Below are positions 2,325 to 29,845 of a stretch of DNA of 29,845 nucleotides, in pieces. Origin of the DNA: a virus. Made by a program: the position numbers and the translations under genes. The stretch spans positions 1-29,845 of the IMG/VR virus record IMGVR_UViG_3300030085_003861, one strand, 5' to 3'. Under the pieces are notes generated by a model that did not search any database, had not been told where the DNA came from, and worked only from the letters and a program-made list of their open reading frames with translations. Each line of letters begins with the position of its first letter. Position 1 is the stretch's first letter.

Positions 2325-3039
2325 TATTGCCACCTGACGTTGTTCCGCTCACAGTGTTAGATGTTGACAATGCCGTCGAACTTGTTTCGGTGAATGTTGT
2401 TAAACTCTGTATCCTTAGTGTGTAATCTATCTGGATCAATCTGTTCAAAGACTTTTGGACAGGGTGAAATATAACGTGAGTCAGCAGTTTGTTTGTGGAT
2501 CCATTCTCTGTTCCTTCCCATGATTTCAATCCCAGTTCATCGAACACATAATCTCCGTTGAAATCTGTTGTATTGTCAAACGCGGCCTGCCCTGTTGGCT
2601 CACCGTAATCTAAAGTGCAAGTCACAACGATGTCTGTGTATTTGTTACCTGCTGTGTGTCTCACTTCCATCTTGTTTTTTGTTGTATCTTTGTTAGTGGC
2701 AGAATTATCATCTATCACTTTGTAATAAGTCTGATTGTAAAGAGAGGCGTTAGTGCCCGTTGAGTTTGGAGTAAGATATGTGATTATTCCTGTGGGATCA
2801 ACACTTGTGCCACCGTTTCCTAGTGCTATCTCATGTATGAATCCTGTAGATTTGTTTGCCAAAGAATTTGCAAGTGCCTGAGACATGTTCTCGTAGTGTA
2901 TTGCATTTCTCTTATCTACAATGACCTCACCTGTCTCCGGATCTGATATCTTTATATGCCCCGTCATCATAACACCAGTGTTATCCTGAGGCTTTTTGTT
3001 TTCTTCTTTTGATTCTGTCTGTTTGTTATCCTGTGTCAT
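2314..3039 (-). CDS. Conserved T4-like marine phage virion structural protein
   Basis: 241 residues. A charged, Lys/Glu/Asn-rich N-terminal ~25 residues precedes a compact domain with GHIKISDPETGEVIVDKRNA, IHYENMSQALANSLANK, IHEIALGNGGTSVDPTG and LYNQTYYKVIDDN, then a Ser/Thr/Gly-rich tail ending GGNTGY. I recognise the central part as a conserved structural protein of T4-like cyanophages located near the baseplate and fibre genes, but do not know a T4 gene number for it. Position between the giant tail protein and the fibres suggests a connector or baseplate-periphery role (inference). The start ATG lies 9 bases after the stop of the giant gene. No AGGA is evident upstream of it; an AATAAATA word lies 6 bases before the ATG. 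Confidence 0.7.
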   Translation of the reverse strand: MTQDNKQTESKEENKKPQDNTGVMMTGHIKISDPETGEVIVDKRNAIHYENMSQALANSLANKSTGFIHEIALGNGGTSVDPTGIITYLTPNSTGTNASLYNQTYYKVIDDNSATNKDTTKNKMEVRHTAGNKYTDIVVTCTLDYGEPTGQAAFDNTTDFNGDYVFDELGLKSWEGTENGSTNKLLTHVIFHPVQKSLNRLIQIDYTLRIQSLTTFTETSSTALSTSNTVSGTTSGGNTGY

Positions 3040-3045
3040 CTAGTG

Positions 3046-3053
3046 TATTTATT
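3046..3053 (-). promoter_or_regulatory. Late-promoter-like word AATAAATA
   Basis: AATAAATA on the minus strand differs from the T4 late promoter word TATAAATA at the first base only. It includes the TAA stop of the giant gene and ends 6 bases before the ATG of the 241-residue gene. If it acts as a T4-type late promoter (word at about -13 to -6), transcription would begin at or next to the ATG, giving a nearly leaderless message. Confidence 0.4.
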
Positions 3054-6000: not shown

Positions 6001-9000
6001 TGCAGTTGGACCATAGAATGTGTCCGCGTACCCATCGAACGTGTAAGACTTCGTAGTGCCTGATCCTGAATTTTGAGAATCATATACCTCTGCCTGTTTC
6101 TCACTTGTAAACAATGGATAGTAATAACCAAACTGTCCACTGGTAGCACCTGAAGAACTTGTCCCTTGGATCTGGAATGGTCCTGTTGATCCTGTGGTAC
6201 CTCCAAGTATTGTCACTGTTGGTGTTTCTTGATATCCGGAGCCTCCTGACGTGATTGTTATTGACTTGACATACTTCTTGTGATAGTCATACCACATCTG
6301 ATATGGATACTCTGTAAGTTTTTCAGTGTCCAGGTCAACGTTTAAACTTCTTATTTTGCCTGTGTTCGCATCATAGAAGGTTGGGTTGTCAAAATCTGAA
6401 AATATGCCATCCTGCGTTTCCGTTTTATCGTAGCCTAGTTTGTACTCTCTTAATTTTGTGTGGAAAGGTTTTACTTCATTGATGTAACTTTCAACCCAAC
6501 TGTCAGTACCTGTTGTGTAGGTTTTTCTCTGATCTAGTTGTCTTACTTTATTTGTGGCATTTATGAATGACGTCTTGAACATCCAGTCTACGTAAGTCTG
6601 TTCAGATAGCACTCTTCTTAGTCCTGTGAAAAACAAAGTGTTGTACTCTTTGGCTAGGTCATTTATGAATAAATCATCTCGCAACGCTGTAAGCACTTTC
6701 CTTGTTTCTATGCTTGGCTCTTCGTCAAAGAAATTGTCATCGAATGTGTCCTCACCTGCATACCCAGTAGCGTCCTGGCTGTAGTCATACAGTTTAGTGG
6801 ATAACCTTATTGTTCCGTTCTCTGTACCTATGTTTTCAAATCCTGTTGCAGTCTTCATGAACAGTTTCCAACCGCCTGTGTCTGCACTTGTCACTTTCAC
6901 GTGTTTTCCCACCGCAATATCTAGTGTGTCCAACTCGTATTGGAAAGTGACCTGTTTGTCGATAGGGGTGTTTTCATCATGCACCATGTCGCCATCGGTC
7001 TTGTACCAATCTGTGTAACTCCAGTAGTTCGATGTGTTGTACGTTTGAATTTTGGTCCTCGAAAATTCTGTGCCGTCCCATGTGTATATCGCCCAGTTGT
7101 TATTCGCGGTCTCATCGGCCTTAACCAAATAATTCACTGTCCCTGACAAATCCGCAGTGTTAATGTATGTCAGTTCAGCATAAGTGTCGACCGATCCGTC
7201 CCACTCACCACTCTGTGCTGTAGGTTCAGGGTCTTTTGAATCAAGGTTATCAAGATTTATCTGTCCAACCAATTGGTTCTTTTTTAGAACCGTGTTTGCG
7301 TAGTCAATTATTTCTTTTAGTGCCCCATATCTGTCAACGTACCAACTCTGCCTTGGTCTTGTGCTATTTCCATATCTCTCATTGACAGGCAGTGTGACAT
7401 CAGGCACAAGATCACCTGCTGAATTTTTTCCTACTAGAGAATCCCACCAACGTGTTTCGATTGTTGTTCCTGGCCTGTATGCGGCATCACCTTCCCTTAC
7501 TAATTTCCAAACACTGTGTGACTCTGCATCTGATGTGTTTGTACGGATGTCAACGTTCAACACTATGTCGGAGTTAGAAAGATTTTTTACATTGTACAGT
7601 TCTAATTTGTTTGTGTCAGTGACAGCGTAATATTTTACATCAAACCTCCTAGGATTTTCGATCAAGTTGGCGACATACGCAACCGTGTTACGTCTGTGCA
7701 AGTGTATGTGTCTGTCGTCCATGGTTTTGTTTCCCGGAATCGTGGTCTTGCCTTTGACCCAGTAGTAGTAATAATCCACAAACCTGTCCAGCCTTGAATC
7801 ATATTTTTGCCTTACAGAATATTGTGAGTCATCCCCGTGCAGTGCAGTCCCAGAAATTATCTCACCTGTGGTGTCAACCCTTGCGTCCCATTGGCTAGGT
7901 AACAATCTAGATTCAGTCCATTCATACACGTCTATGCTTGACCCAGGAAACACCTTGCCCCAGTTGTTGTGTCTGTATTCAGTTGTGTCCTGCTCGTACC
8001 ATAACCATTTGACTTTCGACAGATCCCACCATACCTCGCCAACGTGATCATCCAACCACGGTGTCTTGGTGTTCGCGTTTTCTCCTACGTTGTACATCGC
8101 AGGATCCCAACTCGTTTTGATGTCTATTTCTCTGTCTGCGACACCCAATATTCTTCCCTTGACAGGATCATATAAATCATAATAGTCTCGTATTGTTTTT
8201 GATGCACTGTTGAAATCAAACACAGTTCCTAATTTTTCTATGTCAATAAAATTTGTTTCTGTCACGATGTTCTTCCATGAATACTGGCCATTCTCTGTAA
8301 GATCATAGTGATTGACTGTGCCGTCATTTTGCACTTTGGTGCTACCATCTGAGGTTGTGTTGCCGTCATCGTCTGGCGCACCTATGAACACACTGTTGTC
8401 AATCATGCACACACCTTTTGCAAAGTCATCATTTTCAGAGATGCTGTCTGATTCCAATTTGTCGTCTATAATAAATTTGGTGTTGTACATCGTGGCCGTA
8501 AATGCTCCGCCTGATCCTGTGTTGGCGTCTAGTATCGTTGTGTCTTGAAGATCGAATGTAGTCTCACCTAGGTCAAATTTCATTTCTCTAGAACTAGCAA
8601 AATTTTCCGCCCCTATGACCAGTCTATTCCCAGCCTGATTCAAATCTACCCGTGTACCGAATCTCATGTTGGTCTGAGAAATCGGTGCATTTATGGTTTG
8701 CTGTAATGAGTAGGTGTTGGTAGACCCGTCCGCGTTCCATTTATAATAGTACACCGCGCCTGCATCCGCCGCCAATGTGCCATCTACGCCAGGAGCACCG
8801 ATTATCAAGGTCATACCGTCTTTGCTCATGGCAATGTCATCGCCAAATTTTGTGTTTATAGTCGAACCGTCGGAGTCGACGCCGGTCAGTGTCTGTACAT
8901 GGGTGAATGTGTTTTGTGTGCTGTCATCATCTGAAGCACCTTGTCTCACAAATATTTCAACTTTACCGGCGTTGCCCGGTGCTACTGAACTTACTGCAAG

Positions 9001-12000
9001 GATATCTCCGTTGTCGTTAGCCGCTAGCCTATGACCAAACCTTTGTGTTGATCCTCCCGCTGGTGATCTTATTGATGCGTCTTGCGTCCACGAATCATAT
9101 GTAGATCCGTCTGCACCGATACCCCATGTGTACATGTATACGACTCCGGTGTCAGTTGAATGCCCAGGAGCAGAAACAAACAAGTATTTCTTATTTGAGC
9201 TCCTTGTGGATGCTACCGTTGGTTCAGAAATCTTGTGTGCCCATCCAAAATTTAAATTTTCATTTTCAGTTGATCCGTCTGTAGGCGGATTTATAGTGTT
9301 TAATATACCGTATTTGAATGCCACAGGATCCCATACGTAAACTTTTATCAATCCAGCATCTATCTGTCTTGTGCTACCGTCAAGACCAATTGTATTAGTG
9401 TAAGGTGCTCCTGCCACTACAAAGTTTTCATCGGTACTGATAGACAGAGACTCACCAAGTCTGCTGGTGTTATCATTGTTGTCTGTCATTGTAGCAGTGG
9501 TCTGTGTCTGTAAAGACGTACCTGCTTCAGTGGATGTCCTAAATAAGAAGTGGACCTCGCCTTGATTTTTACCTGGTGCAGAGACCACCACAGTCCTTCC
9601 GTCATTACGTGCCACTATCCTGTGTCCAAACTCTTGGTCAGCAGTGGTTGTGTCCGGCGACAGCAATAAGTTTGCGGTATATGGATCACACTTTTCGTAG
9701 ACACGCCACAATCCAGAACTGTCGGAGTCTGCAAATACCTTGTCGCCTGGAAGTTCTAAATCTGCATTCATGTCAACGTAATCGTCAAAATTTAAAATGT
9801 CGTTGACATTGTCCATAGATGCCAGTCTCACTGATATGAACTTGTAGATGTTTCCAAAACTGTCCGCCGTTGATCCGTCTTCCAACGTTGGAATGAATCC
9901 CACACTGCCATCATAATCTATTATTACAGACTTATGATCCGGTGTTGCCTTGACCTGGTAAACACCGTTGAGCGTTGGCTCCTCACTATTGGAAATAGCA
10001 AAGTAATCCGCTTGTGATGTTGAGGTTCCTGCTGACAGGCCATGTGATCCAGAGAACGTTATCGACAGTTGTTCTCCATCATTGATCATTAATAGGTTAG
10101 CAATCTTTATGTTGGCGCTGGTGATCCTGAACACGTCCCAGTCTAGGTTACTCTTGTTTGCCACCCAAACAAGTTCGTTGCTCTTAATTTCGTTAATATC
10201 AAGATCTAAAATATCTTCTATGTTGAAGGCTGTATGATGTACCTGTTGCAGTTGTGGATACCCTGCTGTCTTGAAGATCTGGGCAGTGTCTCTGTCTACA
10301 CCCTGTTTTGTATAATCTAATTTAGAAAAAGTGTTGGCCGCAGTGTATTCCACGGGTTTGTTATAAAAATTATCCTTCACTATGGCGTCTGATCTTGCGT
10401 AACTTATGGTGTCATTGGAAGTATCCAACAATTCTATGGTCTGAGGATTCGACGTAATTTCATTATCTTTCAATACCAGTTGTATGTTTTCTATTTTGTC
10501 AGTGTTTCCAAAGTTACCAGTTCGTATCATCCACTCAGGATAAAGATCCAATGTGATGTCTTCATTCTCATATTTCGCTTTTAAAATTTTGTCTATGGCG
10601 TTCTGTGTGCCTTTCTCCCTGATGTATCCTTGATAAAACTTGTACTGTGATACGTCATTGACAAATAAATTTTCTAGATAGTCTCTGCTCTGGTATCCTG
10701 TGAGCCTCTGTGCTAATTGTTGTTGTGATTCGTCAAAATTATTTGATTCCAAGTTGTAAAAGTCATTGAACTGTGCTATCTTGTAGTCGAAGTTTGGAAT
10801 CAGTTGTGGCGCTGGTTTATTGTCCTTCAGTGTCCAGTACGTGGACGCAAAAATTGAACCAGAATTATGATTCGTTTTTGCAACATAAAACTTGCCTTGG
10901 TATTCAACGCTATCGCCTATTTTGTAGTCGGTGTTTGCCAACCAGTATGTAACCTGTGCGGCGTCAAAAACAAAACCAGGAGCATAGTAATCACCATTCC
11001 ACCCTGCAGTCTTCCATCCTACTAATTTTAGACGTGCTTGCCTAAAACCTGTGTATGGTTCATATATGATATCAGAAAACACTGTGCTATTGTCAAACAG
11101 AAGCACATGTTCTTTCTGCACAGTGTTCAACGCGATGTTGTATAATCCAATCGTGTCTGATTTTATTCCTAACTCAAAAGTTTTACCTATACGCTTTGTA
11201 GAGATTTCGTTGATGTCAATTTTCCTTCCACCCGAATCTAATATCGAATAGTCTCCTGCAAGGTTACGTAACTGTCCCACTATGCTGTTGTTGGTGTCAA
11301 GTTCGAATCCGTCCGCGGCAGGTGACACTGTGACTGCTGATCCAGGTTCCCATTCCTGTGTCGTCCAGAATAAGAATTCTCGTACTGCGTTCTGCCAATT
11401 TAGCGTTTCCTTCAACTCGTTTGAAAACTTGTTGAATTTGAATCCCTGTGACTCTAGCCAATGACCATAACCAAGCAAGAAATCTGTGACATCTTGTATG
11501 GTATCAAACACGTAACCATAGGGTATTGTCTGCGTGTTTTCTTGATAGTATTTGTACTGCTCAACTTGTACGGATCCTTCCACTGCCACCTTGGTAGCGG
11601 TAGATGTTTTTACTGGATAGTTGAAATTAAAGTATGGCCTTACCGTGCTGTAACCCAATACCTTGTATCCACCTAGCAATGTAGAGCCGTCTTGTGATAT
11701 GTCTGTGTTTTTCTCTATAAGCACACCTGAATAATAAATGCTGTCAACAGGGTTAGAAGTTCTGAATAATATTTTGTAGTTCTCATCAGGTATAAATTTA
11801 GACCCTGATGTCGATCCAGGCGATACACTATCAGTGAGAACTTTTAGATTGTCCTTGTCTGTAAATCCGCCTAACTTGTATGCCAACTGGACATTTAGGT
11901 TTTTCATCTTATCATAATAAAAAGTTTTTGCGTCCAGGTTCCTGTACACCAAATAGTTTACTATGTATGGTTGATAACCAGCAGTTTGGTACCTAGTAGT

Positions 12001-15000
12001 GACTCCTGTTGATAAGTTGGTCTCTGTTTCTAGATGATATTTGGCGTCTGCAAGTGTCTTTCTTACACCTGTTTCGGAATATATCTGATTACCAGAAACA
12101 TTTGTTGATAATCGTGACGGATCAAACATGTTTGAAAAATACCTTGCCGGTCTTGTCAACGCCATTGTTTTCATGACTGAGAAAGGATATGAACTTGATC
12201 TTCTCCACGCCGTTTCCGCTGGCGCTTGATCGCCGAACTTCCAGGCGTTGGACCTTCCACGGATGTCGAAATTGTCTACAAGTCCTGCGGCCAATGGATC
12301 CAATAGGTTTCCTGATGCATCTACAGGAAGGTAAGATTTTATTTCAGGCTTGGCGTATCTTCCAGTTTGACTTGCAATAGCGTCCCATAATACATCGTTA
12401 CCTGATGTGTATGGTGCACTTCCGTATGTGTCTTCCCAATCTGAAGGCTTTTCAGAGTGGCCTAACATCTCCCATGGTCTGACATGTGGAGCATCTGTGT
12501 CATAAAAATATTTGTAGATACCTCTCCAATATCCTGGCAAATTCTCACCAATTAATCTGCCTTTTGATCTAGCGTAGTTGTAAGTGAATGGCGATCCTTC
12601 TGTGTACACTGTGTTATTGATGTATTGAACATTGTTCCGTCCCGCCCATTGATAGAAATCTGGACCCATGATCTTTTCAACTTCGGCCAACGTGTAATCT
12701 GTTGATGTGAATGCACTTGGTAGCACATCATTGATATCAAGTAATTCAGAATCGTACGTGACTTTGATATTGTTGTAAATCCGTTTTTCTAGTTCTATTA
12801 TTAGGTCATCACGTTCATCGCCGTAAGCCTTGATAATAGATCCATCATGTTTCCTAATTACACTTGTGTCTGTCAGGTATGTTGTATCCGTGAATATTTC
12901 AGGAGTATACTTAGGATACATTCCAAGTTTAGTGGGCGACGGTGGCATGTAACTACCTGTTGTGTCAGCGTAGTCCTTTATCACTATCTTATCACCTTCT
13001 ACGAGTGCCTTCGATATAGTCACGGTATCATCTGTTGTGCTGAAAGTGTAATCACTGCCTAAAAGTAATTGCACATCGTTTACATAGACGTAAACCGCTC
13101 TGTTGCTTAATTTTGAAATGTCATGCTGTGAGTCCAAAGCGTAATCGGTTTGTGATGACCCCTGCACAGTGTATGATCTCGTGGAAACATTTTCTCCCCA
13201 TCCTAGCATGTCCTCATAGTAGAATGGAAACCCACTGTTCCTGCCCGGTGTTATAGAACTTATGATTTCATCCACTCTGTCAGCGGCGACTCCCTCGTAT
13301 GCGGTACCTGTGGCGTGTGTCAAAAATGCATTGTACCATTTTTCGTATTCCTGTCCCGCGTAGTCAACGGCTGTTATAAAGTTGGCATTCTGATCCACCA
13401 AACCGAATATTGCTGGAAGCAAGGATCCTTCGTGTTGATGAATACTACCGCCTTTCAATCTAGCATCAGGTTTGTCTCTAAGATTAGATACGCCGGGTAT
13501 TAATCCAGTAACCTCCTGGTTTTTGTCTAAAATATCCCTTACATGATTTAAAATTTGTCCGAACGTGAATGTTCCTAATTGTTCATTCAAAGCATTTGTA
13601 GATAAATTTTCTGGGACTTCATATATCCCTTTGTCTGTGACCTTATCTGCACTGCTATGACCTGCAAGTCTGATTTGATCGTTTACTTCAAGTTTTTCAC
13701 TGAACTTGACGAATTTGTTTTTTGTACCTGTCTCTAATGTGAAATCAGTTCCTAGGGTCTTTCTTGTGCCATTCACTGACACCGATACTTCTAGGTCTGT
13801 AAGATCTGCGGAATTTTTATAGAAATCGATAGGGAATAATTGTTTTTCAGTATCATCTACGGTTAAAGTCCTGATTACACGCTGTTTGCTATCACTGGTC
13901 CTTTTGATCCAGGCACTACGTGAATTATGAGTTGCCCTACCTGTGGTGTAGTGTAAGTGTCCTTCCGCTAAATTTTTTGTAAGCGTCTGGTTTCCATCCT
14001 TATAAGTGAATGTGCCGGAAGTGTGGTCAGATTCAAACACAATGTCGCCTACATTGTTCACTGTGTTGTACTTGACCTTTATGCCAAGCACTGTGTCTGT
14101 AGTGGCAGTGTCAGAAGTGGCAAAACTGAAGACCTTGGCGCCCTCGAAGGTTGAGTTAGGATATGTTGTGGCATCATCGAATGACGTATGGTTGTCGTCG
14201 AACATGGCAAACAAAGGCTGTTGGTTTACTTTGGTCTTTTCCTGCGCCTCTATGAATGTTTCCGTTGAACTGTCGTAACGAAAAGTCTTGCCTTGATTTG
14301 CAGTGCCAAATTCTATGAATATCGAGTCATCGTTGGCAGGTTCTGTGTCAGAGGCCTCGGTAAGTGCAATGACCTGTGTTGAATCACCCGCGGTAACAAA
14401 GTTGACATCATAAATTTTATTTTTTACAATAGGATCTGTGTCTGCGGTGAAAACCACCCTCATGCCATCCGCCAGAGCAACACCGTCAACAATGTAACCT
14501 GTCTGTTTGACCACTGTGCTGAATGCGTCAGTCGTCACTGTATCAAACAGCGTCACTGATTTCTTTGCTACTGTGCCATGATTGTACAACGCCAATCCTG
14601 AATCAAATTCAATGATAGGTCTCTTGGCCCTGTCGTCCTCATTCAATACCGGCGTGTAACCACCTATCCTTGCTGTCTCCTCTATCACAGATCTATGAAA
14701 CCACCTATTGTATCTCGACCAAGCATTCCTGTCTCGAGAGTCCCTCTTGATTGTCATGTAATCTTTTGTTTCCGGTGTGTAGAAGGCTTTTGCATATGGT
14801 CTTGTGTCGTATCCAACTTGATCATATAGTATTGTAGTCTCTGTGGCATATGAGCCAGGCGTAATCAAATCCTCCACGTCTGTAAGTGTAATTGCATCAC
14901 CCACACCCTCTACATAATATTCCTTGTCCTGATAATCGCTTGACACGAGAGAATTTGTAAATTTGATCTTCATGCCGTTTGAAAGATCTAAGGTTCTAAG

Positions 15001-15927
15001 ACTATAATTTTTAACCCCTATGATGTCGTCCTCAACGTTGATCGACGAGGTTGCAGTGATATCTTTGATTTGTAGTATTCCATACATGGCATCATGATTA
15101 CCACACTGATAGTACAAGGTGTTTGGAACACCTGTCGTTGGCACAGTGAAAGTTACCGTGCCGTAGTCGGCACCATTGTTTGTTACTCCTGTGTCAAATA
15201 TAGTCGAGGTCGATCCGTCTGCTGAAATTTTGGCCTTGTATGGCTCCGTCATTATCCAGAATGGATGACCTTTAGCGTTCACGTTAAATTTGTAGGTGTT
15301 TCCCCTGTAAAGAGTTATTATAGGATTGTTTTCATTTTCCCTGTGCGTGAAATTGTATGCACCTTGGGCCAGATTCTCAACAGAATATTCAAACACCGCA
15401 TTGGGACCAACCGCATCAATCTCCAATGAAGAAGGACCGCCCGGCATCCAATAGTACTCTCTGTAATTGACTAGTTTGTCGTAGTCAATTGCAGGATTCC
15501 AACTGTATATGGTTTCCTTGTTGAGCCTATCATGATTATTAACGCTACCACCGAAATATTTGATTTGATTGATATAATCGTCATAGGTACTTGTAAACTT
15601 CACCTGATCTTCAGGGTTGACAGACGTAGTATCCTTGTCGGTGTACGTCACCGCTGGTTCCAACTGGTATGCGTATCTGTCTCTGCTTGTGGCTGTTATG
15701 TATCTATCTGTTATTTGTCTGGTGTATGCATCCTGTCTGCCAATGAATCCGTCCAATCTCTCTAATGCACCTTTTTGCACCAAAGGATCTAAGGTGCTCG
15801 AAAAAAATCTTTGGTTTGCGTCTGTTCTGTAAAATGCCGGTAAATGTTGTACGGTACGCCTGTATTCGTTGTTACCCTGCTTTACGACTTCGCCATTAGT
15901 TAGAGCGTTTGTAGGATTGTCTGCCAT
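3049..15927 (-). CDS. Giant multidomain virion protein (4292 aa), probable baseplate-attached tail protein
   Basis: A single open frame of 12.9 kb in the place that gp7/gp8 take in T4 (directly after gp6). The N-terminal ~170 residues (LPAFYRTDANQRFFSSTLD, GALERLDGFIGRQDAYTR) look like a virion-anchoring region. Then come a cupredoxin-like domain (~178-290), modules such as NAWSRYNRWFHRSVI and AKRPIIEFDSGLALYNHGT (~400-460), a carbohydrate-binding-like module (1662-1698), a seven-blade FG-GAP-like propeller (~2095-2543), wedge-like mixed sequence with GEVWWDLSKVKWLWYEQ (after ~2620), two SGGSGY/PTVTI motifs, a second carbohydrate-binding-like module (3410-3441), and from ~3515 to the end repeated GDGST beta modules plus a PGVVFVGKERIEYF segment. 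It starts in a TAATG overlap with gp6 and an AGGA site. T4 gp7 has about 1030 residues, so this is about four times larger. Structural role is well supported; equivalence to gp7, or a fusion of wedge and fibre functions, is inference. Confidence 0.8.
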   Translation of the reverse strand: MADNPTNALTNGEVVKQGNNEYRRTVQHLPAFYRTDANQRFFSSTLDPLVQKGALERLDGFIGRQDAYTRQITDRYITATSRDRYAYQLEPAVTYTDKDTTSVNPEDQVKFTSTYDDYINQIKYFGGSVNNHDRLNKETIYSWNPAIDYDKLVNYREYYWMPGGPSSLEIDAVGPNAVFEYSVENLAQGAYNFTHRENENNPIITLYRGNTYKFNVNAKGHPFWIMTEPYKAKISADGSTSTIFDTGVTNNGADYGTVTFTVPTTGVPNTLYYQCGNHDAMYGILQIKDITATSSINVEDDIIGVKNYSLRTLDLSNGMKIKFTNSLVSSDYQDKEYYVEGVGDAITLTDVEDLITPGSYATETTILYDQVGYDTRPYAKAFYTPETKDYMTIKRDSRDRNAWSRYNRWFHRSVIEETARIGGYTPVLNEDDRAKRPIIEFDSGLALYNHGTVAKKSVTLFDTVTTDAFSTVVKQTGYIVDGVALADGMRVVFTADTDPIVKNKIYDVNFVTAGDSTQVIALTEASDTEPANDDSIFIEFGTANQGKTFRYDSSTETFIEAQEKTKVNQQPLFAMFDDNHTSFDDATTYPNSTFEGAKVFSFATSDTATTDTVLGIKVKYNTVNNVGDIVFESDHTSGTFTYKDGNQTLTKNLAEGHLHYTTGRATHNSRSAWIKRTSDSKQRVIRTLTVDDTEKQLFPIDFYKNSADLTDLEVSVSVNGTRKTLGTDFTLETGTKNKFVKFSEKLEVNDQIRLAGHSSADKVTDKGIYEVPENLSTNALNEQLGTFTFGQILNHVRDILDKNQEVTGLIPGVSNLRDKPDARLKGGSIHQHEGSLLPAIFGLVDQNANFITAVDYAGQEYEKWYNAFLTHATGTAYEGVAADRVDEIISSITPGRNSGFPFYYEDMLGWGENVSTRSYTVQGSSQTDYALDSQHDISKLSNRAVYVYVNDVQLLLGSDYTFSTTDDTVTISKALVEGDKIVIKDYADTTGSYMPPSPTKLGMYPKYTPEIFTDTTYLTDTSVIRKHDGSIIKAYGDERDDLIIELEKRIYNNIKVTYDSELLDINDVLPSAFTSTDYTLAEVEKIMGPDFYQWAGRNNVQYINNTVYTEGSPFTYNYARSKGRLIGENLPGYWRGIYKYFYDTDAPHVRPWEMLGHSEKPSDWEDTYGSAPYTSGNDVLWDAIASQTGRYAKPEIKSYLPVDASGNLLDPLAAGLVDNFDIRGRSNAWKFGDQAPAETAWRRSSSYPFSVMKTMALTRPARYFSNMFDPSRLSTNVSGNQIYSETGVRKTLADAKYHLETETNLSTGVTTRYQTAGYQPYIVNYLVYRNLDAKTFYYDKMKNLNVQLAYKLGGFTDKDNLKVLTDSVSPGSTSGSKFIPDENYKILFRTSNPVDSIYYSGVLIEKNTDISQDGSTLLGGYKVLGYSTVRPYFNFNYPVKTSTATKVAVEGSVQVEQYKYYQENTQTIPYGYVFDTIQDVTDFLLGYGHWLESQGFKFNKFSNELKETLNWQNAVREFLFWTTQEWEPGSAVTVSPAADGFELDTNNSIVGQLRNLAGDYSILDSGGRKIDINEISTKRIGKTFELGIKSDTIGLYNIALNTVQKEHVLLFDNSTVFSDIIYEPYTGFRQARLKLVGWKTAGWNGDYYAPGFVFDAAQVTYWLANTDYKIGDSVEYQGKFYVAKTNHNSGSIFASTYWTLKDNKPAPQLIPNFDYKIAQFNDFYNLESNNFDESQQQLAQRLTGYQSRDYLENLFVNDVSQYKFYQGYIREKGTQNAIDKILKAKYENEDITLDLYPEWMIRTGNFGNTDKIENIQLVLKDNEITSNPQTIELLDTSNDTISYARSDAIVKDNFYNKPVEYTAANTFSKLDYTKQGVDRDTAQIFKTAGYPQLQQVHHTAFNIEDILDLDINEIKSNELVWVANKSNLDWDVFRITSANIKIANLLMINDGEQLSITFSGSHGLSAGTSTSQADYFAISNSEEPTLNGVYQVKATPDHKSVIIDYDGSVGFIPTLEDGSTADSFGNIYKFISVRLASMDNVNDILNFDDYVDMNADLELPGDKVFADSDSSGLWRVYEKCDPYTANLLLSPDTTTADQEFGHRIVARNDGRTVVVSAPGKNQGEVHFLFRTSTEAGTSLQTQTTATMTDNNDNTSRLGESLSISTDENFVVAGAPYTNTIGLDGSTRQIDAGLIKVYVWDPVAFKYGILNTINPPTDGSTENENLNFGWAHKISEPTVASTRSSNKKYLFVSAPGHSTDTGVVYMYTWGIGADGSTYDSWTQDASIRSPAGGSTQRFGHRLAANDNGDILAVSSVAPGNAGKVEIFVRQGASDDDSTQNTFTHVQTLTGVDSDGSTINTKFGDDIAMSKDGMTLIIGAPGVDGTLAADAGAVYYYKWNADGSTNTYSLQQTINAPISQTNMRFGTRVDLNQAGNRLVIGAENFASSREMKFDLGETTFDLQDTTILDANTGSGGAFTATMYNTKFIIDDKLESDSISENDDFAKGVCMIDNSVFIGAPDDDGNTTSDGSTKVQNDGTVNHYDLTENGQYSWKNIVTETNFIDIEKLGTVFDFNSASKTIRDYYDLYDPVKGRILGVADREIDIKTSWDPAMYNVGENANTKTPWLDDHVGEVWWDLSKVKWLWYEQDTTEYRHNNWGKVFPGSSIDVYEWTESRLLPSQWDARVDTTGEIISGTALHGDDSQYSVRQKYDSRLDRFVDYYYYWVKGKTTIPGNKTMDDRHIHLHRRNTVAYVANLIENPRRFDVKYYAVTDTNKLELYNVKNLSNSDIVLNVDIRTNTSDAESHSVWKLVREGDAAYRPGTTIETRWWDSLVGKNSAGDLVPDVTLPVNERYGNSTRPRQSWYVDRYGALKEIIDYANTVLKKNQLVGQINLDNLDSKDPEPTAQSGEWDGSVDTYAELTYINTADLSGTVNYLVKADETANNNWAIYTWDGTEFSRTKIQTYNTSNYWSYTDWYKTDGDMVHDENTPIDKQVTFQYELDTLDIAVGKHVKVTSADTGGWKLFMKTATGFENIGTENGTIRLSTKLYDYSQDATGYAGEDTFDDNFFDEEPSIETRKVLTALRDDLFINDLAKEYNTLFFTGLRRVLSEQTYVDWMFKTSFINATNKVRQLDQRKTYTTGTDSWVESYINEVKPFHTKLREYKLGYDKTETQDGIFSDFDNPTFYDANTGKIRSLNVDLDTEKLTEYPYQMWYDYHKKYVKSITITSGGSGYQETPTVTILGGTTGSTGPFQIQGTSSSGATSGQFGYYYPLFTSEKQAEVYDSQNSGSGTTKSYTFDGYADTFYGPTASTSEAQSTKSGTFKMYVVPATTAATATATIQDGAVTKITLTSNGDNYTTTPTVVISGGKTDGSTPTDTAKAYANLDNDLVRDFDTTIKFDRVSSTSRVVDWAASTSYAYNDLIRYNNQLYKVTNAFTSSTDFDDNIGSVYKVYGDETGLTAADRTKGFYTPGAGMPGNELDQVMTGIDYGGTMVTGLLFSQEAGWDKAGWYDFPWDNYGTSRVKAFRADGSTAAFTFDTAPASTEVYQVYLTQDDSTRTKLTDVVRGDGSTVTFTISQTPEENALVEFIPFDDDGVLTPTDDRTLDSIVKGGLFTSALGHAPSDIILEGDEFVSPDTSYAPEETVPGQMFDTVDIKVYTSPESGVPFISEKNYRGDGTTTVFDIGDFPGTLGSVTVAVDGSVKKLTTDYTIDVKNKTITFGSAPANHSQVSTKVFAISGENYRVLNTFTGDGSTTAFLTSTRGEFNLDSTSSDIYVTIDGVPTVAYTTSTLANTITVTFSSAPGAGTFIQIAGFNKSTTSTRSFASVRSETITYDGSTNRYNLTYPAGAIGPFSGLTIVEVNGRVLRGPDNTYYTGDGSTYTYGVVSGLGDDSTVDPAKTISAASQVEVFVNGVQKNLNTHYTVDIGNQNVNFKADSVPTATDVICISTLVDHQYFVDGGTDADVILIPSSITSPYSLSASDVITVTTFNNALGMKQRREVLEGRPSGVFNLRFDTLNAGYTYVWLNGQQLIQASDYTVSGNTITVNGRTITSSDRLDVMYFAVDSAVNATGFRIFKDMLNRTFYKRISKTATTKLTLDMTTSISTMTVEDGSVLQEPNASANLPGVVFVGKERIEYFTKSGNTLGQLRRGTLGTGIKEHGSGTEVVDASGTQTIPYADTVYTNTFTGDGSTLLFALSQAPSNASELDIFIGGQRLLLTSEDGSTINYSVDGSTTAVTLSTAPASGTQIKILHKKGQVWYTALDGNPADGKGLQASTTAQAKFIANEPTNAPE
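3200..5360 (-). repeat. Array of DGST-containing beta modules in the giant protein C-terminus
   Basis: Residues about 3515-4240 of the giant protein carry repeated units of roughly 80-110 residues with the pattern (G)DGST-x-x-F ... V-x-V-x-G ... TDYTV ... I-x-F-x-x-AP. Examples are RADGSTAAFTFD, RGDGSTVTFTIS, YRGDGTTTVFDIGD, TGDGSTTAFLTS, YTGDGSTYTYGV, TGDGSTLLFALS and VDGSTTAVTLS. Such units are common in phage tail fibres (family knowledge). They are diverged at the DNA level, so this is an old protein repeat rather than a recent DNA duplication. Confidence 0.65.
5605..5700 (-). other. Carbohydrate-binding-like module 2 within the giant protein
   Basis: Residues 3410-3441 read W-A-A-S-T-S-Y ... 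ND-L-I-R-Y-N-N-Q-L-Y-K-V ... S-T-D-F. The pattern W-x4-5-Y-x3-D-x-V/I-x-Y-x3-Y-x-V-x(n)-F resembles the short aromatic fold of family 5/12 carbohydrate-binding modules. A related segment lies at 10834-10944. Ligand binding is inference. Confidence 0.4.
5821..6262 (-). repeat. Two copies of a SGGxGY..PTVxIxGG motif in the giant protein
   Basis: Two related segments about 130 residues apart encode ITSGGSGYQETPTVTILGG (about 6201-6262) and LTSNGDNYTTTPTVVISGG (about 5821-5885). This glycine-turn/beta-strand motif recurs in phage tail proteins. The segment between them is Gly/Ser/Thr-rich with many aromatic residues. Confidence 0.55.
8300..9640 (-). other. FG-GAP-like seven-blade beta-propeller within the giant protein
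   Basis: Residues about 2095-2543 show repeated blades that begin FG/LG and continue with a hydrophobic strand and a (G/S)AP or similar turn: FGHRIVARNDG...VVVSAPG, RLGESLSISTD...VVAGAP, FGWAHKISEP...LFVSAPG, FGHRLAANDNG...LAVSSVAPG, FGDDIAMSKDG...LIIGAPG, FGTRVDLNQAG...LVIGAE, FAKGVCMIDNS...FIGAPDDD. Most are followed by G-x-V-x-x-Y/F strands. This is the pattern of FG-GAP/integrin-alpha-type propellers, with seven blades by my count. Such propellers usually bind proteins or glycans. Confidence 0.65.
10834..10944 (-). other. Carbohydrate-binding-like module 1 within the giant protein
   Basis: Residues W1662 to W1698: W-L-A-N-T-D-Y-K-I-GD-S-V-E-Y-QG-K-F-Y-V-A-K ... H-N-S-G-S-I-F-x4-W. The order W, Y, GD-x-V-x-Y-x-G-x-x-Y, H-x-SG, F, W closely follows family 5/12 (chitin-binding-like) modules found in secreted glycosidases and phage fibres. 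This is a better match than the module at 5605-5700. Ligand unknown. Confidence 0.55.
15058..15396 (-). other. Cupredoxin-like domain with complete type-1 copper ligands, within the giant protein
   Basis: Residues about 178-290 show alternating beta strands (ITLYRGNTYKFNVNAKG, YGTVTFTVPTTG, LYYQCGNHDAMYGILQI). His221 in GHPFWI, Cys275, His278 and Met281 in C-G-N-H-D-A-M fit the His...Cys-x2-His-x2-Met ligand pattern of plastocyanin/azurin-type copper sites. Whether metal is bound in the virion is unknown; some phage domains of this fold are structural only. Confidence 0.6.
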
Positions 15928-15937
15928 TAGTATCCTG
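15925..15937 (-). promoter_or_regulatory. Ribosome site and stop/start overlap CAGGATACTAATG
   Basis: Identical over 13 bases to the junction at 2312-2324. AGGA lies 5 bases before the ATG of the giant gene, and TAATG joins the stop of gp6 to that ATG. Translation of the giant protein is probably coupled to gp6. Confidence 0.7.
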
Positions 15938-18900
15938 CTCCACTACTGCCAGAACTTGAACTTGATCCTGAACCTGATGTAGTAGAGCCTGACACTGCTG
16001 ATCCCGTTGTCGTGTTAGTTGTGGTTGTTGAAGTTGATGTGACTACAGTGCCCGAAGCCGTAAGTTGGTTGGCTCCTAACGCTGTGATTATCGACACATC
16101 ATCAACGGTGGCCCCACTGATGAAAATCTCGTCTGCCGCGGAATTTAGTTGGAACAGAGACCCAAAACTCTGTCCAGACTGATTTGGAACAATAACTGCT
16201 GTAAGCAAATCTGGTGCTAATTGATTGTGGATGTAAGCGGCTAGTTCTGTAAAGAAAAAAGTATCTCCAAAGTCCCAATTATCTAGGGCAAAGAATTCAT
16301 TTATTGCGGCAATTACCCTTGTTTTGACAACTGCGTCTGAAATATTTGTCTTTGGATTTTTAACAACTTTGAATGTTGCTTGTAATTCTTCTTCAGCGTT
16401 TGAACCAAACAATAATTTATATTTTACTGGATGGTACACTATTTGGTCTGATAACGATTTAAGAGGATTTAGTTTTCCAGAATAATTAATTCTCAACTGA
16501 TCTGGTGTGGATTCTGTAGGTTTGGTTCCGCCGTCTTGTAACCAAATTCTGTAAAGATTATCATACGTTCTCTCTAATAGGTATACGTCAACGATGTTCG
16601 AAACACTAGGATCGATCCTTGTTTCTTGTCCTGCATGATGTTTGTATTGGAAATCGATTGAACTTCTACCTTTCCTAGCCTGATAGTCCGTTGTAGTTGA
16701 TAATGTGTTCGTAGTAGAACTATACTTCTTGATCACGTCCTCTGCACTATCATAAAAATAAAACAACTGTTCATCTGTGTAGGTTGTGGAATTCAAGTTA
16801 ATGTCTGTTTCATTTTGCGTCACAATAAAATTGCTTGCCGCATATGGTCTGAATCTTTCTATGTTATCGTATGATGTGTATTTTTCAAAGAAAACAAATT
16901 TCGTTGATTCGGAAACTGTTGGTTCAATGAAAATGTCAAATATCTCTGGATTGTCAACGACACCGTCATCGTCACTGTCGAAGAATCCAACCTTGACTTT
17001 TCTGTTATCTTGGAAACCGTCTGCTTCCGTCACAGTGTCCACAACCTGCCACGTAATAGGATAACCAATGCTGTTTCCTGTAGACACGATACTGTTTGTT
17101 TTTAGGATTTTTACATTATCCTTTACGGTCTTGCCTGTTTTGTAATCATATATTTTTTCTTCAACATCGAAATGGAATTTATTCTGTCCTTCTGACTCGA
17201 ATATGTAATCCAGTTTTCTGTATTGTACGGTGTATGTATTTCCATCGTTTGTAAACTTGAACCACCAACTAGCGTCTGCGTTGGTACCTGTTGTTGACCC
17301 AGCGTTGGTCAAACTGAATACAGCACTCGCACTAAGGTTTGTACTTGTGATTACTTTCCAAGTCTCAGAGTCGACATCATATCTTAGGCCAAACTCTTCA
17401 TAGGCTTCGATCCTGTCTAGTAAATCTGTTTCCAACGTTGACGAGAATGATGTTGTGAAGTTAGGGATAATGGCACTAGCAACTGCTCCTTGCGGAATGA
17501 TGTTGTTTAATGTTACCGGTCCCACTCCTGACTCGAGATCTCCGGTTCCTCCGTTTGCGCCATCTCCTACCACTGCTCCTATCTTTGCCCATATTCTATC
17601 CTCAGCGTCTTCGGTTCCTGCGGTAACCAAGGTGCCGTTCAAGAAAGTTCTTGTATCTGGTGATGTGAATTTAACCAATGCACCCGGCTTCGCGAATTTC
17701 AAGTTAGAAGTTGCAAAATCGCCTAGCACAAGAGCACCACCGGATGTGAAGTAACCAGTGTTGGTGTTGGTGTTTGTTGTTGTTGAATTCCATGTGCTTG
17801 TAAGTGTGCTCACGTCTTTAGTTGAATATTTGAAATAATAGAACTGTCTGGCATATGCTTCTTTCAATCTTGCCTCAACTGATAAATCGATCGTGGATTG
17901 TATGTCACTCCTATTGTTAAACGTGAACGTAAATTGCTGGGTTGATTCTTCCCTGTAAAGTATTCCGTCTTCGGCAAAAGTGCTAACGTTAGAGTAGGCA
18001 CCCGTTGGGTCTATAATTTCTTTTGCCCTAGATATACCGGAAGCAGATCTGTTAACAGATCTCACCTTTACTATTTCCTGTGATGCACTCAAAGGCACCA
18101 CCTGATAGTCCTCCGCCGTAATCATCCTGTTCTGTGAATAATAAACCTGTGCCGCTTTTTCTTTTATTGAATCATTTGATTCGGTAGCCGCAGAATTGTA
18201 AACTGATGCCTTCAAACTTAAACTCATTGTCAATGACTGTTGTGATCCATTTGCATCTGTGTAAGGCACAGTCAATTGAATGTTTTGCATGTCTGCTGGT
18301 TGTATAGCGTACTTGGCATTGTCACTTGTTCTGTAATAAGTTCTGAAATTACCCAACGGAATGTTTGAGAAGTTACCATCTCCAAACACAAAGTCTATGG
18401 CGTCATTTGTTTTCGTCACAACATTGAAAGTATTTCTCTCTGCTTTGGATAATGAATTGTATATTGCATTATTGCCTGCCAGTGACGGAACCTTTGTCCA
18501 TGATTCTGCCAATTGTCCAAATTGATCTAGTTTATATAACCACACGTCTGTGTCATTTATGTTTTGGGTCTCAATAGGTTTAACGTAATTCGTGATAGAG
18601 GTACTGACATTGAATTCTTGGTTCTGCATGTTTCCTTGTTTGAAAAGGAAGAAAAAACCTGTGTTGTTCGAACTGTCACCTGATCCGTCTGATCTGTAAC
18701 TGTAGGTTATACCTGTGCCTGGCACTGGGGATGATTCGTAGATTGAGTCAGAACCTGAAATTGAACTTGGTACTATCTCGAACGCCCTGTTAGTGCCACC
18801 GATTGGTTTTGTAAATTTAAAAATAGGTAGATCAAATTGATTCGAACTTAAAGTGTAGACTTCTGTAGTGACCCCACCTATCGTTCCCGACTCCCTAGGA

Positions 18901-26267: not shown

Positions 26268-27287
26268 ATGTTTTTTAAGAAAGTAGCGTGTTTCACTGAC
26301 ATCCACTTTGGACTGAAGGGCAACAGTCGTGTACACAACGACGATTGCGAGGCATTTGTTATATGGTTCATAGAGCAGGCCAAACTACATGGCTGTGAGA
26401 CTTGCATATTCCTAGGCGACTGGCATCATCACAGATCGGCCACAAACGTGTCAACAATGAACTACACAGTTTCTAACATGGAACGACTAGGAAAAGCATT
26501 TGAAAAAGTGTATGTCATAATGGGTAACCATGACTTGTACTACCGAGACAAGAGAGAAATCAACTCCATGGAATACATAAGGAACATACCAAACATACAC
26601 ATCGTCAACGAATGGTTGGTAGAGGACGACGTCGCGATAATTCCATGGGTAGTGCAGGACGAATGGAAGAAGATTGAAAAAATGAAACAGAAGTATGTGT
26701 TCGGACACTTCGAACTGCCTTACTTTAAAATGAACGCAATGGTAGAAATGCCCGACGTTGGCGGAATACAGACCGATCATTTCGCAGGTTGTGGCAAAGT
26801 TTTCTCGGGACACTTCCACAAGAGACAGTACATGAAGAACGTCACATACATGGGCAATGCCTTCCCACACAACTACGCAGACGCTTGGGATGATGACAGG
26901 GGCATGATGGTGCTAGAATACGGCGGAGAACCTAAATTTATAAATTGGCCAGAGATGCCAAGATACATCACAATCAAAGTGTCTGAGTTACTGGAGGACC
27001 CGGACAAATACCTAAAGCCAAAAATGTACGTGAGGGTAACACTCGACATAAAAATAAGTTACGAAGAAGCAAATTTTGTAAGGGAAACATTCATAGACAA
27101 ATATCAACTGAGGGAATTACAACTTATACCAGAACAAGTGGACAACGCACAACAACCGTTGGTAGAAGTGCAGAAGTTTGACAGTGTTGATCAAATCGTA
27201 ATCAAACAGTTACAGGGAGTGGACTCTGAAGTCTACGACAAGAATGTATTAACAGCAATTTACAACGATCTTGATGTCACGAATTAG
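26268..27287 (+). CDS. 47: Recombination endonuclease subunit gp47 (Mre11-like)
   Basis: 339 residues, the same as T4 gp47. Metallophosphoesterase motifs are complete: D11-x-H13 (FTDIHFG), GD51-W-H53, G-N87-H88-D89, FGH147FE and GH182-F-H184. These bind two metal ions for 3'-5' exonuclease and endonuclease activity. With gp46 it resects double-strand ends to start recombination-dependent replication and helps degrade host DNA. The gene lies between gp55 and gp46, as in T4 (55-47-46). Its last 14 bases overlap the start of a small gene. Function is clear from the motifs. Confidence 0.9.
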   Translation: MFFKKVACFTDIHFGLKGNSRVHNDDCEAFVIWFIEQAKLHGCETCIFLGDWHHHRSATNVSTMNYTVSNMERLGKAFEKVYVIMGNHDLYYRDKREINSMEYIRNIPNIHIVNEWLVEDDVAIIPWVVQDEWKKIEKMKQKYVFGHFELPYFKMNAMVEMPDVGGIQTDHFAGCGKVFSGHFHKRQYMKNVTYMGNAFPHNYADAWDDDRGMMVLEYGGEPKFINWPEMPRYITIKVSELLEDPDKYLKPKMYVRVTLDIKISYEEANFVRETFIDKYQLRELQLIPEQVDNAQQPLVEVQKFDSVDQIVIKQLQGVDSEVYDKNVLTAIYNDLDVTN

Positions 27288-27444
27288 TAAAAAGAAATTG
27301 ATAAAAGTTTTGAAAGGTGATCTCGAAGAACCTGTAACCAAACAGTCACTCTTGGATCAACTTGCAAAACCTATAACACAGGAAGAATGGTTGAAAGGAT
27401 ACAGAGAGTGGGTGGCAAAACACAAAAAACATGTTAACGATTAA
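27274..27444 (+). CDS. Small protein of 56 residues between gp47 and gp46
   Basis: ATG at 27274 to TAA at 27442-27444 gives 56 residues: MSRISKKKLIKVLKGD, then LEEPVTKQSLLDQLAKPITQ, then a C-terminal EEWLKGYREWVAKHKKHVND. It fills the gap between gp47 and gp46 exactly, overlapping each by 14 bases, as expected of a translationally coupled gene rather than chance. Composition is basic and helical (12 Lys), with W-L-K-G-Y-R-x-W aromatic residues near the end. No clear ribosome site is visible, in line with coupling. T4 also has small genes (46.1, 46.2) between 47 and 46, but I cannot show homology. Function unknown; a regulator or partner of the nuclease is a guess. Confidence 0.7.
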   Translation: MSRISKKKLIKVLKGDLEEPVTKQSLLDQLAKPITQEEWLKGYREWVAKHKKHVND

Positions 27445-29206
27445 AGAACTTACAGTAAAAAATTTCATGAGCGTGGGCAACCAGGCCCAGGCCATTGACT
27501 TCTCGAACAAAAGTCTTGTACTTGTCATAGGTGAAAACATGGACCTAGGTGGCGACGATGCTGGTGCAAGGAATGGTACTGGAAAGACAACAATCATTAA
27601 CGCACTTTCTTACGTGTTTTTTGGAGAAGCACTAACAAACATAAGAAGAGACAACCTGGTTAACAAGACCAACGAAAAAGGCATGATGGTATGCGTTAAG
27701 TTTATCAAGAACGGCGTGACGTACACCATCGAAAGAGGACGTAAGCCACAGATATTCAGGTTCTACGCAAACGATATAGAACAAAATACCGAGAGCAACG
27801 AAGCACAAGGTGAGAACAGAGAAACACAGTCAGAAATCAACAAACTGTTGGGTATGACCCATTCCATGTTCAAAAACATTATTGCCTTGAACACGTACAC
27901 GCAACCGTTCCTATCTACTAAACAGGCAGAACAACGGGAGATAATCGAGCAGTTGCTTGGTATCACACTACTTTCCCAGAAAGCGGACCTGCTGAAAGAG
28001 AAACAAAAAGCAACCAAACAGATGCTTACCGAAGAAAAGATGAGGATAGATGCCAAGGTTGCCAGCAATGAAAAAATACAGGAGTCCATTGAAAGCCTAC
28101 AGATAAGATCAAACGCTTGGGCAAAACAGAAAAACGACGATATTGCAAGTTTCAAAGAAGCAATAGCAGAACTGGAAAAAGTGGACAGCGAGATCGAAAT
28201 AGAGAAACACAAAAAGTTACAGAAAAGAAATGAATTACAGACCATGTTGCGGAGTCTTGAAAAAGAGAAAGCCTATCACGAGAACTCCCTGACAAAGGCA
28301 GAAGGCACTGTGGCAAAAACTAATGCCGATCTCGAATACGCCGCACAACAGAAGTGTCCAACTTGCGAACAGGAACTACTGGACGACAAGCACACACACC
28401 TTGTTGACAAACTTAAAGTGCAACTGACAGAATCAACAGATTACGTGACCAAACTAAAAACTGATCTTGCAAAAATACAACAGGGCATAGACGAGGTTGG
28501 AGATCTAGGGCAGATCCCTGACACTTACTATGACACAATAGACGAGGCCTACAACCACAAAGGTTCGTTGAAGGACTTGCAGAGACAACTGAAGCAGACT
28601 GAAAAGAAAGAAGACACGTATGCCGAACAAATCGAAGAAATGAAAAAAACTGCAATACAAAAAATTGACTACGACAAAGCAAACGAACTTGAAGACTTGC
28701 ACAGGCACCAGGAGTTCCTTTATAAACTGCTGACTGCGAAAGACTCTTTCATAAGGACAAGGATCATAGAACAAAACTTGACATACTTGAACCAGCGACT
28801 GGCATTCTTCTTGGGCAAAGTAAAACTGCCACACACCGTAACTTTCCAATCAGACCTGACTGTGCGTATTGAAGAACTAGGCAGAGAACTGGACTTTGAT
28901 AATTTAAGTAGAGGTGAAAGAAACAGACTGATATTAAGTTTGAGTTGGGCGTTCAGAGATGTGTGGGAAAGCCTTTATCAACAGATCAACTTGCTGTTCA
29001 TCGATGAACTTGTGGACGCAGGCATGGACATTTCCGGTGTTGAGAGTTCAATGGCTGTGCTCAAAGACATGAGTAGAACACAAAAGAAAAATATATTCCT
29101 GATATCTCACAAAGACGAATTGGTGAGCAGGGTGAATTCTGTTTTAAAAGTGGTGAAAGAAAACGGATTCACCAACTATGCCAACGATGTAGATATTATT
29201 GTTTAA
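27431..29206 (+). CDS. 46: Recombination endonuclease subunit gp46 (Rad50-like ATPase)
   Basis: 591 residues (T4 gp46 has 560). Walker A is G-A-R-N-G-T-G-K-T at 45-53. A long coiled coil (about 170-440) is broken by a zinc-hook motif C309-P-T-C312. The ABC signature LSRGERNRL is at 492-500, Walker B LLFIDEL at 521-527 and the H-loop histidine in LISHKDE at about 560. This is a complete Rad50-type ATPase that controls the gp47 nuclease and bridges DNA ends. An insertion (GENMDLGGDDAGARNG) lengthens the P-loop approach, as in other T4-like gp46. Its stop lies inside the 3' end of the converging gene, an overlap of 11 bases. Confidence 0.92.
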   Translation: MLTIKELTVKNFMSVGNQAQAIDFSNKSLVLVIGENMDLGGDDAGARNGTGKTTIINALSYVFFGEALTNIRRDNLVNKTNEKGMMVCVKFIKNGVTYTIERGRKPQIFRFYANDIEQNTESNEAQGENRETQSEINKLLGMTHSMFKNIIALNTYTQPFLSTKQAEQREIIEQLLGITLLSQKADLLKEKQKATKQMLTEEKMRIDAKVASNEKIQESIESLQIRSNAWAKQKNDDIASFKEAIAELEKVDSEIEIEKHKKLQKRNELQTMLRSLEKEKAYHENSLTKAEGTVAKTNADLEYAAQQKCPTCEQELLDDKHTHLVDKLKVQLTESTDYVTKLKTDLAKIQQGIDEVGDLGQIPDTYYDTIDEAYNHKGSLKDLQRQLKQTEKKEDTYAEQIEEMKKTAIQKIDYDKANELEDLHRHQEFLYKLLTAKDSFIRTRIIEQNLTYLNQRLAFFLGKVKLPHTVTFQSDLTVRIEELGRELDFDNLSRGERNRLILSLSWAFRDVWESLYQQINLLFIDELVDAGMDISGVESSMAVLKDMSRTQKKNIFLISHKDELVSRVNSVLKVVKENGFTNYANDVDIIV

Positions 29207-29845
29207 CATCACCCAATTGTTTCCCTATAGAATATAATTTGCCATTTTTATCTTTAACCACATAAAAAAACATAGTTGGATTAAGTTTAAGTTTATCACA
29301 AATTTGTTGATTTGCTATTCCATACATATCCCACCCGTAATCTCTTGGAATATTGTCCATCATGTAAGAGCCACAGGCTCTAGTCAACTCATTGTACTTT
29401 CTCTGTTGGCTGAGTAACGTGCAGGAATCCATTGTACGTTGTCTGGACCATCTGAGGCCTATTCTATTCCACTGCAAATTGTACTTAGACATGCTCATGG
29501 CAAAAGATTTGATGTTAGGATGATCAAAATCAAATTTGTAACCTTTGGCGGCGATTGCCCAGGCACAATCAACGTGGATATCTATATCTTTCTGTTCACA
29601 CTCTTTAAGTACGTCTTGCCAGTCCGGTCTATCTCCATGAAAGTAATTAGGTAATGACACGATCAACGGTACACCAGGTTGTAAATTTCCTGGCTCTGTA
29701 GATTTCTTTCCCATAAGCGTGTAATATGCATATTCATTGTTGAGTATCTGTATGTTCCATTTGTTTTTGCTCACCAAACTTTCTATGAAATGTGTGCAAC
29801 CCATTATGACATCCACACATGGAAACTTGTCCCAACCCTGCAGAT
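29196..29845 (-). CDS. PLP-dependent fold-type I aminotransferase-like protein, 5' end cut by window edge
   Basis: The frame is open through the window edge (…LQGWDKFPCVDVIMGCTH), so at least 216 residues are visible and the true start lies beyond 29845; a GTG at 29814-29816 is an internal Val. Visible motifs fit fold-type I PLP enzymes. PLIVSLPNYFHGD has the usual Pro-Asn. HVDCAWA carries the Asp (codon 29568-29570) that would bind the pyridine nitrogen. FAMSMSKY carries the likely Schiff-base Lys (29484-29486). NRIGLRW carries Arg at the phosphate/substrate position, 28 residues after Asp to Lys and 7 or 11 more to Arg. The gene converges on gp46 and seems to start another transcription unit. 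Substrate is unknown; a role in host metabolism, in nucleotide or base modification, or in glycan synthesis cannot be separated here. A catalytically inactive relative is possible. Confidence 0.6.
   Translation of the reverse strand, partial: LQGWDKFPCVDVIMGCTHFIESLVSKNKWNIQILNNEYAYYTLMGKKSTEPGNLQPGVPLIVSLPNYFHGDRPDWQDVLKECEQKDIDIHVDCAWAIAAKGYKFDFDHPNIKSFAMSMSKYNLQWNRIGLRWSRQRTMDSCTLLSQQRKYNELTRACGSYMMDNIPRDYGWDMYGIANQQICDKLKLNPTMFFYVVKDKNGKLYSIGKQLGDVKQ

Follow-up and report, generated by a model that had tools for sequence, protein, structure and literature searches.

A predicted miniature fold-type I PLP enzyme of uncultured T4-like phages and its candidate enzyme cassette

The window analysed here, 29,845 bases long, is a complete virus record of IMG/VR and breaks off within a gene for a putative PLP-dependent enzyme beside the recombination gene gp46. 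This locus raises the question of which kind of enzyme a T4-like phage would encode at this position, and on what it would act. Based on a structural model of a full-length relative, we describe the gene product as a predicted miniature fold-type I PLP enzyme. With moderate confidence, we suggest that this enzyme works in a small phage cassette together with a 2OG-Fe(II) dioxygenase-like enzyme and an enzyme of the amidinotransferase superfamily. What is new is the family and the cassette; both are built from known chemistries and do not represent a new kind of system.

The reading frame at the end of the window

The PLP-enzyme reading frame occupies the last 648 bases of the window, is open at the contig end and has lost its 5' end (Table 1). 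The initial annotation had placed it next to gp46 on the opposite strand, and this location is borne out: the two genes are convergent, their 3' ends overlap by 11 bp, and gp46 is confirmed by its PHROG match. By PHROG hits, gp47 and a late sigma factor are also among the neighbours in the window. The reading frame is a real, strongly conserved coding region and is under strong purifying selection, with pN values of 0.09 to 0.15 in comparisons with loci L001 to L010, where synonymous sites are near saturation, and a dN/dS of ∼0.11 for the PLP genes of the pair L001/L007. The ∼60 N-terminal residues missing from the window protein are found in relatives, which thus have the N-terminal part of the fold on which the initial annotation had made its PLP claim depend.

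Table 1. Features of the window, with conservation scored in 107 aligned relatives of the PLP protein (incomplete rows set aside; residue numbers are those of the L001 protein)
Feature	Positions	Strand	Expected role or identity	Evidence or conservation
Single reading frame	3049-15927	-	4292 aa; apparently a very large structural protein of the baseplate or tail	
gp47	26268-27287	+	SbcD-like subunit (context)	PHROG 100, E 1e-67
gp46	27431-29206	+	SbcC-like recombination endonuclease subunit	PHROG 77, E 5e-98
PLP-enzyme reading frame	29196-29843	-	C-terminal 215 residues of a predicted ∼274-aa miniature fold-type I PLP enzyme	Reading frame, relatives, model and fold match
RIGLRW	29448-29465	-	Arg expected to bind the PLP phosphate	R186: Arg in 102 of 105, Lys in 3
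SMSKY	29481-29495	-	Presumed Schiff-base Lys (PLP attachment)	K179: 105 of 105 scored
HVDCAWA	29556-29576	-	Presumed partner Asp of the PLP pyridine nitrogen	D151 and W154: 106 of 106 scored
LPNY	29643-29654	-	Place of the NP(T)G-like loop	Pro fixed; Asn, His or Asp vary
YAYY	29721-29732	-	Final Tyr, residue 100, possibly stacked on the PLP ring	Y100: 107 of 107
GCTHF	29787-29801	-	G-x-T loop, expected by analogy to bind the PLP phosphate	G 107 of 107; T 106 of 107

The motifs HVDCAWA, SMSKY and RIGLRW, on which the PLP assignment was originally built, are present in fold-type I order and conserved in ∼105 relatives. Among the scored relatives, G74, Y100, P124, D151, W154, K179, G188 and R190 show no substitution at all (G188 and R190, 105 of 105). 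Because the motifs are near-invariant in the 107 aligned relatives, they are not chance matches.

Fold, enzyme class and distribution of the family

Several lines of evidence support the assignment to PLP fold-type I, which has held up. First, an AlphaFold2 model of a full-length relative, built with 65 aligned sequences, has a mean pLDDT of 92.2 and a pTM of 0.89. Second, Foldseek returned 847 PDB matches at E ≤ 0.001, and among the 50 matches listed, all are PLP fold-type I proteins. Third, VIA-align 2 gave Z scores of 15.9 to 17.1 over 244 to 262 residues, the top match (Z 17.1) having an rmsd of 4.0 over 254 aligned residues. By both methods, the chain from about residue 10 to residue 274 superposes on fold-type I PLP enzymes. 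The phage protein thus shares with these enzymes, i.e., the aspartate aminotransferase superfamily, the fold over nearly the whole chain and the order of the Asp, the Schiff-base Lys and the phosphate-binding Arg. By contrast, nearly all members of the phage family have 263 to 286 aa, whereas the matched chains mostly have 320 to 450; the phage enzyme is ∼100 residues shorter than ordinary fold-type I members, its identity to the matched chains is 6 to 16%, and no curated family scores above its cut-off. Such deep divergence, with ∼100 residues of the usual fold missing, is what might be expected of a PLP-fold protein that has given up catalysis for a structural or regulatory role; however, essentially all relatives retain the G-x-T loop as well as the Asp, Lys and Arg, and we regard a dead enzyme as very improbable. 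If active, the family illustrates how small a fold-type I scaffold can become. A second PLP fold of reduced size occurs in large phages, i.e., a DegT/DnrJ/EryC1-like protein of ∼200 aa in place of the ∼370 aa of its family (L123:20500-21108, L124, L141 and contigs G009, G010 and G011; Pfam score of 50.6 bits over two stretches).

Within fold-type I, the label "aminotransferase-like" of the initial annotation was right about the enzyme class and too specific about the activity. The listed fold matches include C-S lyases, ACC synthases, aminotransferases, a threonine-phosphate decarboxylase and O2-dependent PLP oxidases, and all of these are tied. Because enzymes of several reaction types share the fold and tie, the reaction is not readable from the fold and an aminotransferase activity is not established. 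The profile search against aminotransferase class I/II (PF00155) that had been proposed as a check gave no match for the window protein or for 65 members, and HHalign against 30 PF00155 proteins, using crude alignments, was not significant. Likewise, DegT/DnrJ/EryC1 (PF01041) gave no Pfam match and an HHalign probability near 0, also with crude alignments. Pyridoxal_deC (PF00282) matched the window protein over a stretch spanning HVDCAWA at 17.7 bits (E 0.0015), which is below the curated cut-off of 27 bits, and gave similarly weak matches in 18 of the 65 members. Among four cellular PLP families compared by HHalign with crude alignments, the best link was also to decarboxylases, with 32% probability over a 20-residue motif. 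PDB sequence-profile searches with the PLP protein found nothing significant (Sep-tRNA:Cys-tRNA synthase, E 1.3; flavodoxins, E 0.6). Altogether, searches of Pfam, NCBIfam and PHROGs with the window protein and its relatives gave sub-threshold hits and no convincing family.

The family includes 64 distinct full-length relatives, in which two outlying start calls, at 300 and 302 aa, are uncertain. In two scans of viral contigs, relatives were present on more than 90 contigs; the family is common in uncultured T4-like viruses, which is at odds with the generalization that T4-like phages seldom encode PLP enzymes. No relative was present among 50,697 annotated phage genomes. Being absent from these genomes and from Pfam, NCBIfam and PHROGs, the family is left nameless by current annotation. 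PADLOC gave no defence-family match, searches of the literature on PLP and DNA hypermodification turned up no paper about the family, and a marine survey of AMGs discusses creatine-pathway genes and not a PLP enzyme of this type. Judged by its independently predicted model, A0A6J5KXV0 of an uncultured Caudovirales phage (BFVD) is a member of the same family, with 282 aa, a TM score of 0.89 and 32% identity; it is listed in BFVD as uncharacterized, with no described function or context.

We also considered a cellular origin of the PLP gene. In 398 bacterial genomes searched, the sole match was on contig 44 of a Pelagibacter MAG (locus L090), while the 397 further genomes of the same phylum had no orthologue. 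Because the gene order at L090 is that of the gp46-context phage arrangement, we take this contig to be viral and to have been binned with the MAG. The most distant PLP relative found is at L114:16435-17256 (-), with E 6e-52, and, judging by eye, adjoins one methyltransferase-like and one further oxygenase-like gene.

Partner genes of the PLP gene

Clustering of neighbour genes revealed three recurrent partners around the PLP gene: a 2OG-Fe(II) dioxygenase-like gene (2OG), a gene of the amidinotransferase superfamily (AmT) and a gene for a beta-rich protein of ∼157 aa (BET). Each of the 48 loci that have 3 kb or more of sequence on both sides contains one or more partners within 5 kb, and over the 64 distinct loci, 137 partner hits lie within 3 kb of the PLP gene compared with one at 3 to 10 kb. 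The cassette genes are packed, with short gaps or overlaps of a few bases, as in L001 (2OG, 1890-2447; PLP, 2434-3255) and L049 (PLP, 9980-10804; AmT, 10804-11922; 2OG, 11925-12515). The identity matrices of the cassette families correlate, with Spearman coefficients of 0.41 to 0.72 and none of 500 permutations as high, although shared phylogeny alone could give this result. The cassette lies beside gp46 in the clade of the window's phage, beside the replicative helicase in another clade and elsewhere in others. Because the window ends before any partner gene, the cassette is assigned to its phage through the closest relatives, e.g., L001 and L003, and is thus a predicted feature of this phage. 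At L009 (L294:16125-17872), gp46 and the PLP gene are separated by two inserted genes, one of the radical SAM type that weakly matches a B12-binding family and the other encoding 146 aa.

That the PLP gene nearly always adjoins oxygenase- and amidinotransferase-like genes points to an undescribed phage pathway that produces or modifies an amine-bearing molecule. The PLP gene could instead encode an auxiliary metabolic enzyme that stands alone, an aminotransferase or decarboxylase supplying the ordinary amino-acid or nitrogen metabolism of the host and having no special link to its neighbours. The ordinary aminotransferases, C-S lyases and decarboxylases among the best fold matches are compatible with such a role, as are the weak Pyridoxal_deC matches. 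However, tight linkage to AmT, 2OG and BET genes argues against it, as does the lack of an orthologue in the further genomes of the MAG's phylum, a pattern unlike that of most host-derived metabolic genes. Moreover, the alignment suggests that the C-terminal part has no Arg at the site where many aminotransferases bind the substrate alpha-carboxylate. We therefore consider a stand-alone metabolic enzyme unlikely.

AmT has ∼350 aa, or about 280 in the window's clade, and its profile matches human AGAT (L-arginine:glycine amidinotransferase; E 9e-25), SxtG (6e-24) and StrB1 (5e-20). Phage AmT shares with these enzymes the catalytic Cys, the His and the HxD motif, and the Cys and His are invariant in 26 of 26 cassette AmTs. 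By contrast, the catalytic Asp is not conserved: its column holds Asp in 14 of the 26 and otherwise His (6), Thr, Gln, Val or others. In the window's clade, it holds His or Gln (AmT of L001, L003, L006, L007, L013, L027 and L035), with the Cys and the HxD motif fixed. Because the column is non-Asp in 12 of 26, including most of the window's clade, AmT may not carry out amidino transfer, and the alignment suggests that the reaction is changed in this clade. AmT also occurs in many phages with no PLP gene within reach, including a Synechococcus phage and Campylobacter phages. In the T4-like Campylobacter phages CP220 and CPt10, a putative glycine amidinotransferase gene and radical SAM genes form part of an exchangeable module (PMC2853527). 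The phages described here likewise carry an amidinotransferase-like gene in an enzyme module but differ by the PLP enzyme, of which the annotated phages searched here have no relative. On one short contig, three reading frames of the amidinotransferase superfamily occur together (L112:2456-8903).

The 2OG-like partner has ∼193 aa and the HxD...H...R pattern of 2OG-Fe(II) dioxygenases, with H113, D115, H166 and R178 invariant in 34 of 34 sequences. Family and PDB searches gave no significant hit for it, and its assignment as a putative dioxygenase is made by this residue pattern alone. BET is beta-rich in appearance and had no match in the searches made, including a PDB sequence-profile search. 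It lies within 1.5 kb of the PLP gene at most loci outside the window's clade (42 hits over the 64 distinct loci) and is missing beside the PLP gene within that clade. In L114, a BET-related domain is part of a 353-aa protein, the remainder of which resembles an SGNH hydrolase by eye, a resemblance that Pfam did not confirm.

Proposed pathway and its target

We suggest a model in which the PLP enzyme produces or modifies a building block that bears an amine, be it through transamination, decarboxylation or a related reaction of the Schiff-base type. The 2OG dioxygenase-like enzyme would hydroxylate this building block, to which the amidinotransferase-like enzyme would transfer an amidino group taken from host arginine. 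The resulting compound would serve in tailoring a small molecule or a glycan. That the enzyme binds PLP, in which order the steps occur, what the substrate is and that a glycan or small molecule is the target are all inferred and represent what we consider the most likely reading. A similar logic is known from the streptomycin pathway, in which the PLP aminotransferase StsC supplies an amine that the amidinotransferase StrB1 then modifies. StsC and StrB1 serve as a working analogy for the phage cassette; the analogy is one of logic only and does not make the phage PLP enzyme a sugar or cyclitol aminotransferase. The fixed partners turn a phage PLP gene into a testable three-enzyme pathway, with arginine and 2-oxoglutarate as likely co-substrates.

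A different target would be DNA, with the amidinotransferase-like and 2OG enzymes acting on a hypermodified base, and the initial annotation had raised DNA modification as one possible role. PLP enzymes take part in DNA-base hypermodification in phages ViI and M6, and the chemistry of the three partners could apply to a base-linked amine. However, none of ten carrier contigs of 52 to 316 kb, which may be incomplete, has a match to thymidylate synthase (PF00303), the PLP gene has no match in PHROGs or in annotated phages, and the linked genes are AmT-like, 2OG-like and beta-rich. DNA modification thus finds no support here, and by these gene contents, hypermodification is disfavoured as the role of the PLP gene and appears improbable to us.

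We consider it similarly improbable that the target is a protein or peptide, e.g., BET or a tail fibre, which the cassette would modify much as gene clusters with radical SAM enzymes tailor peptides. Such a role would be consistent with the small BET protein encoded close to the PLP gene and with the radical SAM genes, at least one with a SPASM domain, on many PLP carriers. However, radical SAM genes are also present on contigs with AmT and no PLP gene, and because the window's clade lacks BET beside the PLP gene and L114 has it within a larger protein, BET is not a universal substrate.

We prefer a glycan or small molecule as the target because of the gene context on carrier contig G005 and because the ten carriers have no thymidylate-synthase homologue. 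Near its tail genes, G005 encodes a PIG-L deacetylase, an epimerase, a DegT aminotransferase, a carbamoyltransferase and radical SAM enzymes. This glycan-type context is suggestive only, with the glycan genes lying tens of kb from the PLP gene. DegT matches occur on 3 of 10 PLP-carrying contigs and on 3 of 3 AmT-only contigs tested. Tentatively, we extend the model to a possible wider picture, in which T4-like phages of marine and freshwater habitats might carry a dedicated mobile three-enzyme pathway yielding a hydroxylated amine or guanidine for the virion or the host surface, and in which the PLP enzyme would be virus-restricted and among the smallest of fold-type I.

Five radical SAM-like genes lie in a row at 10153-16497 (-) of L292 (G005:1-20000), from a relative of the window's phage, near SGNH-like, carbamoyltransferase, DegT aminotransferase, epimerase and PIG-L deacetylase genes.
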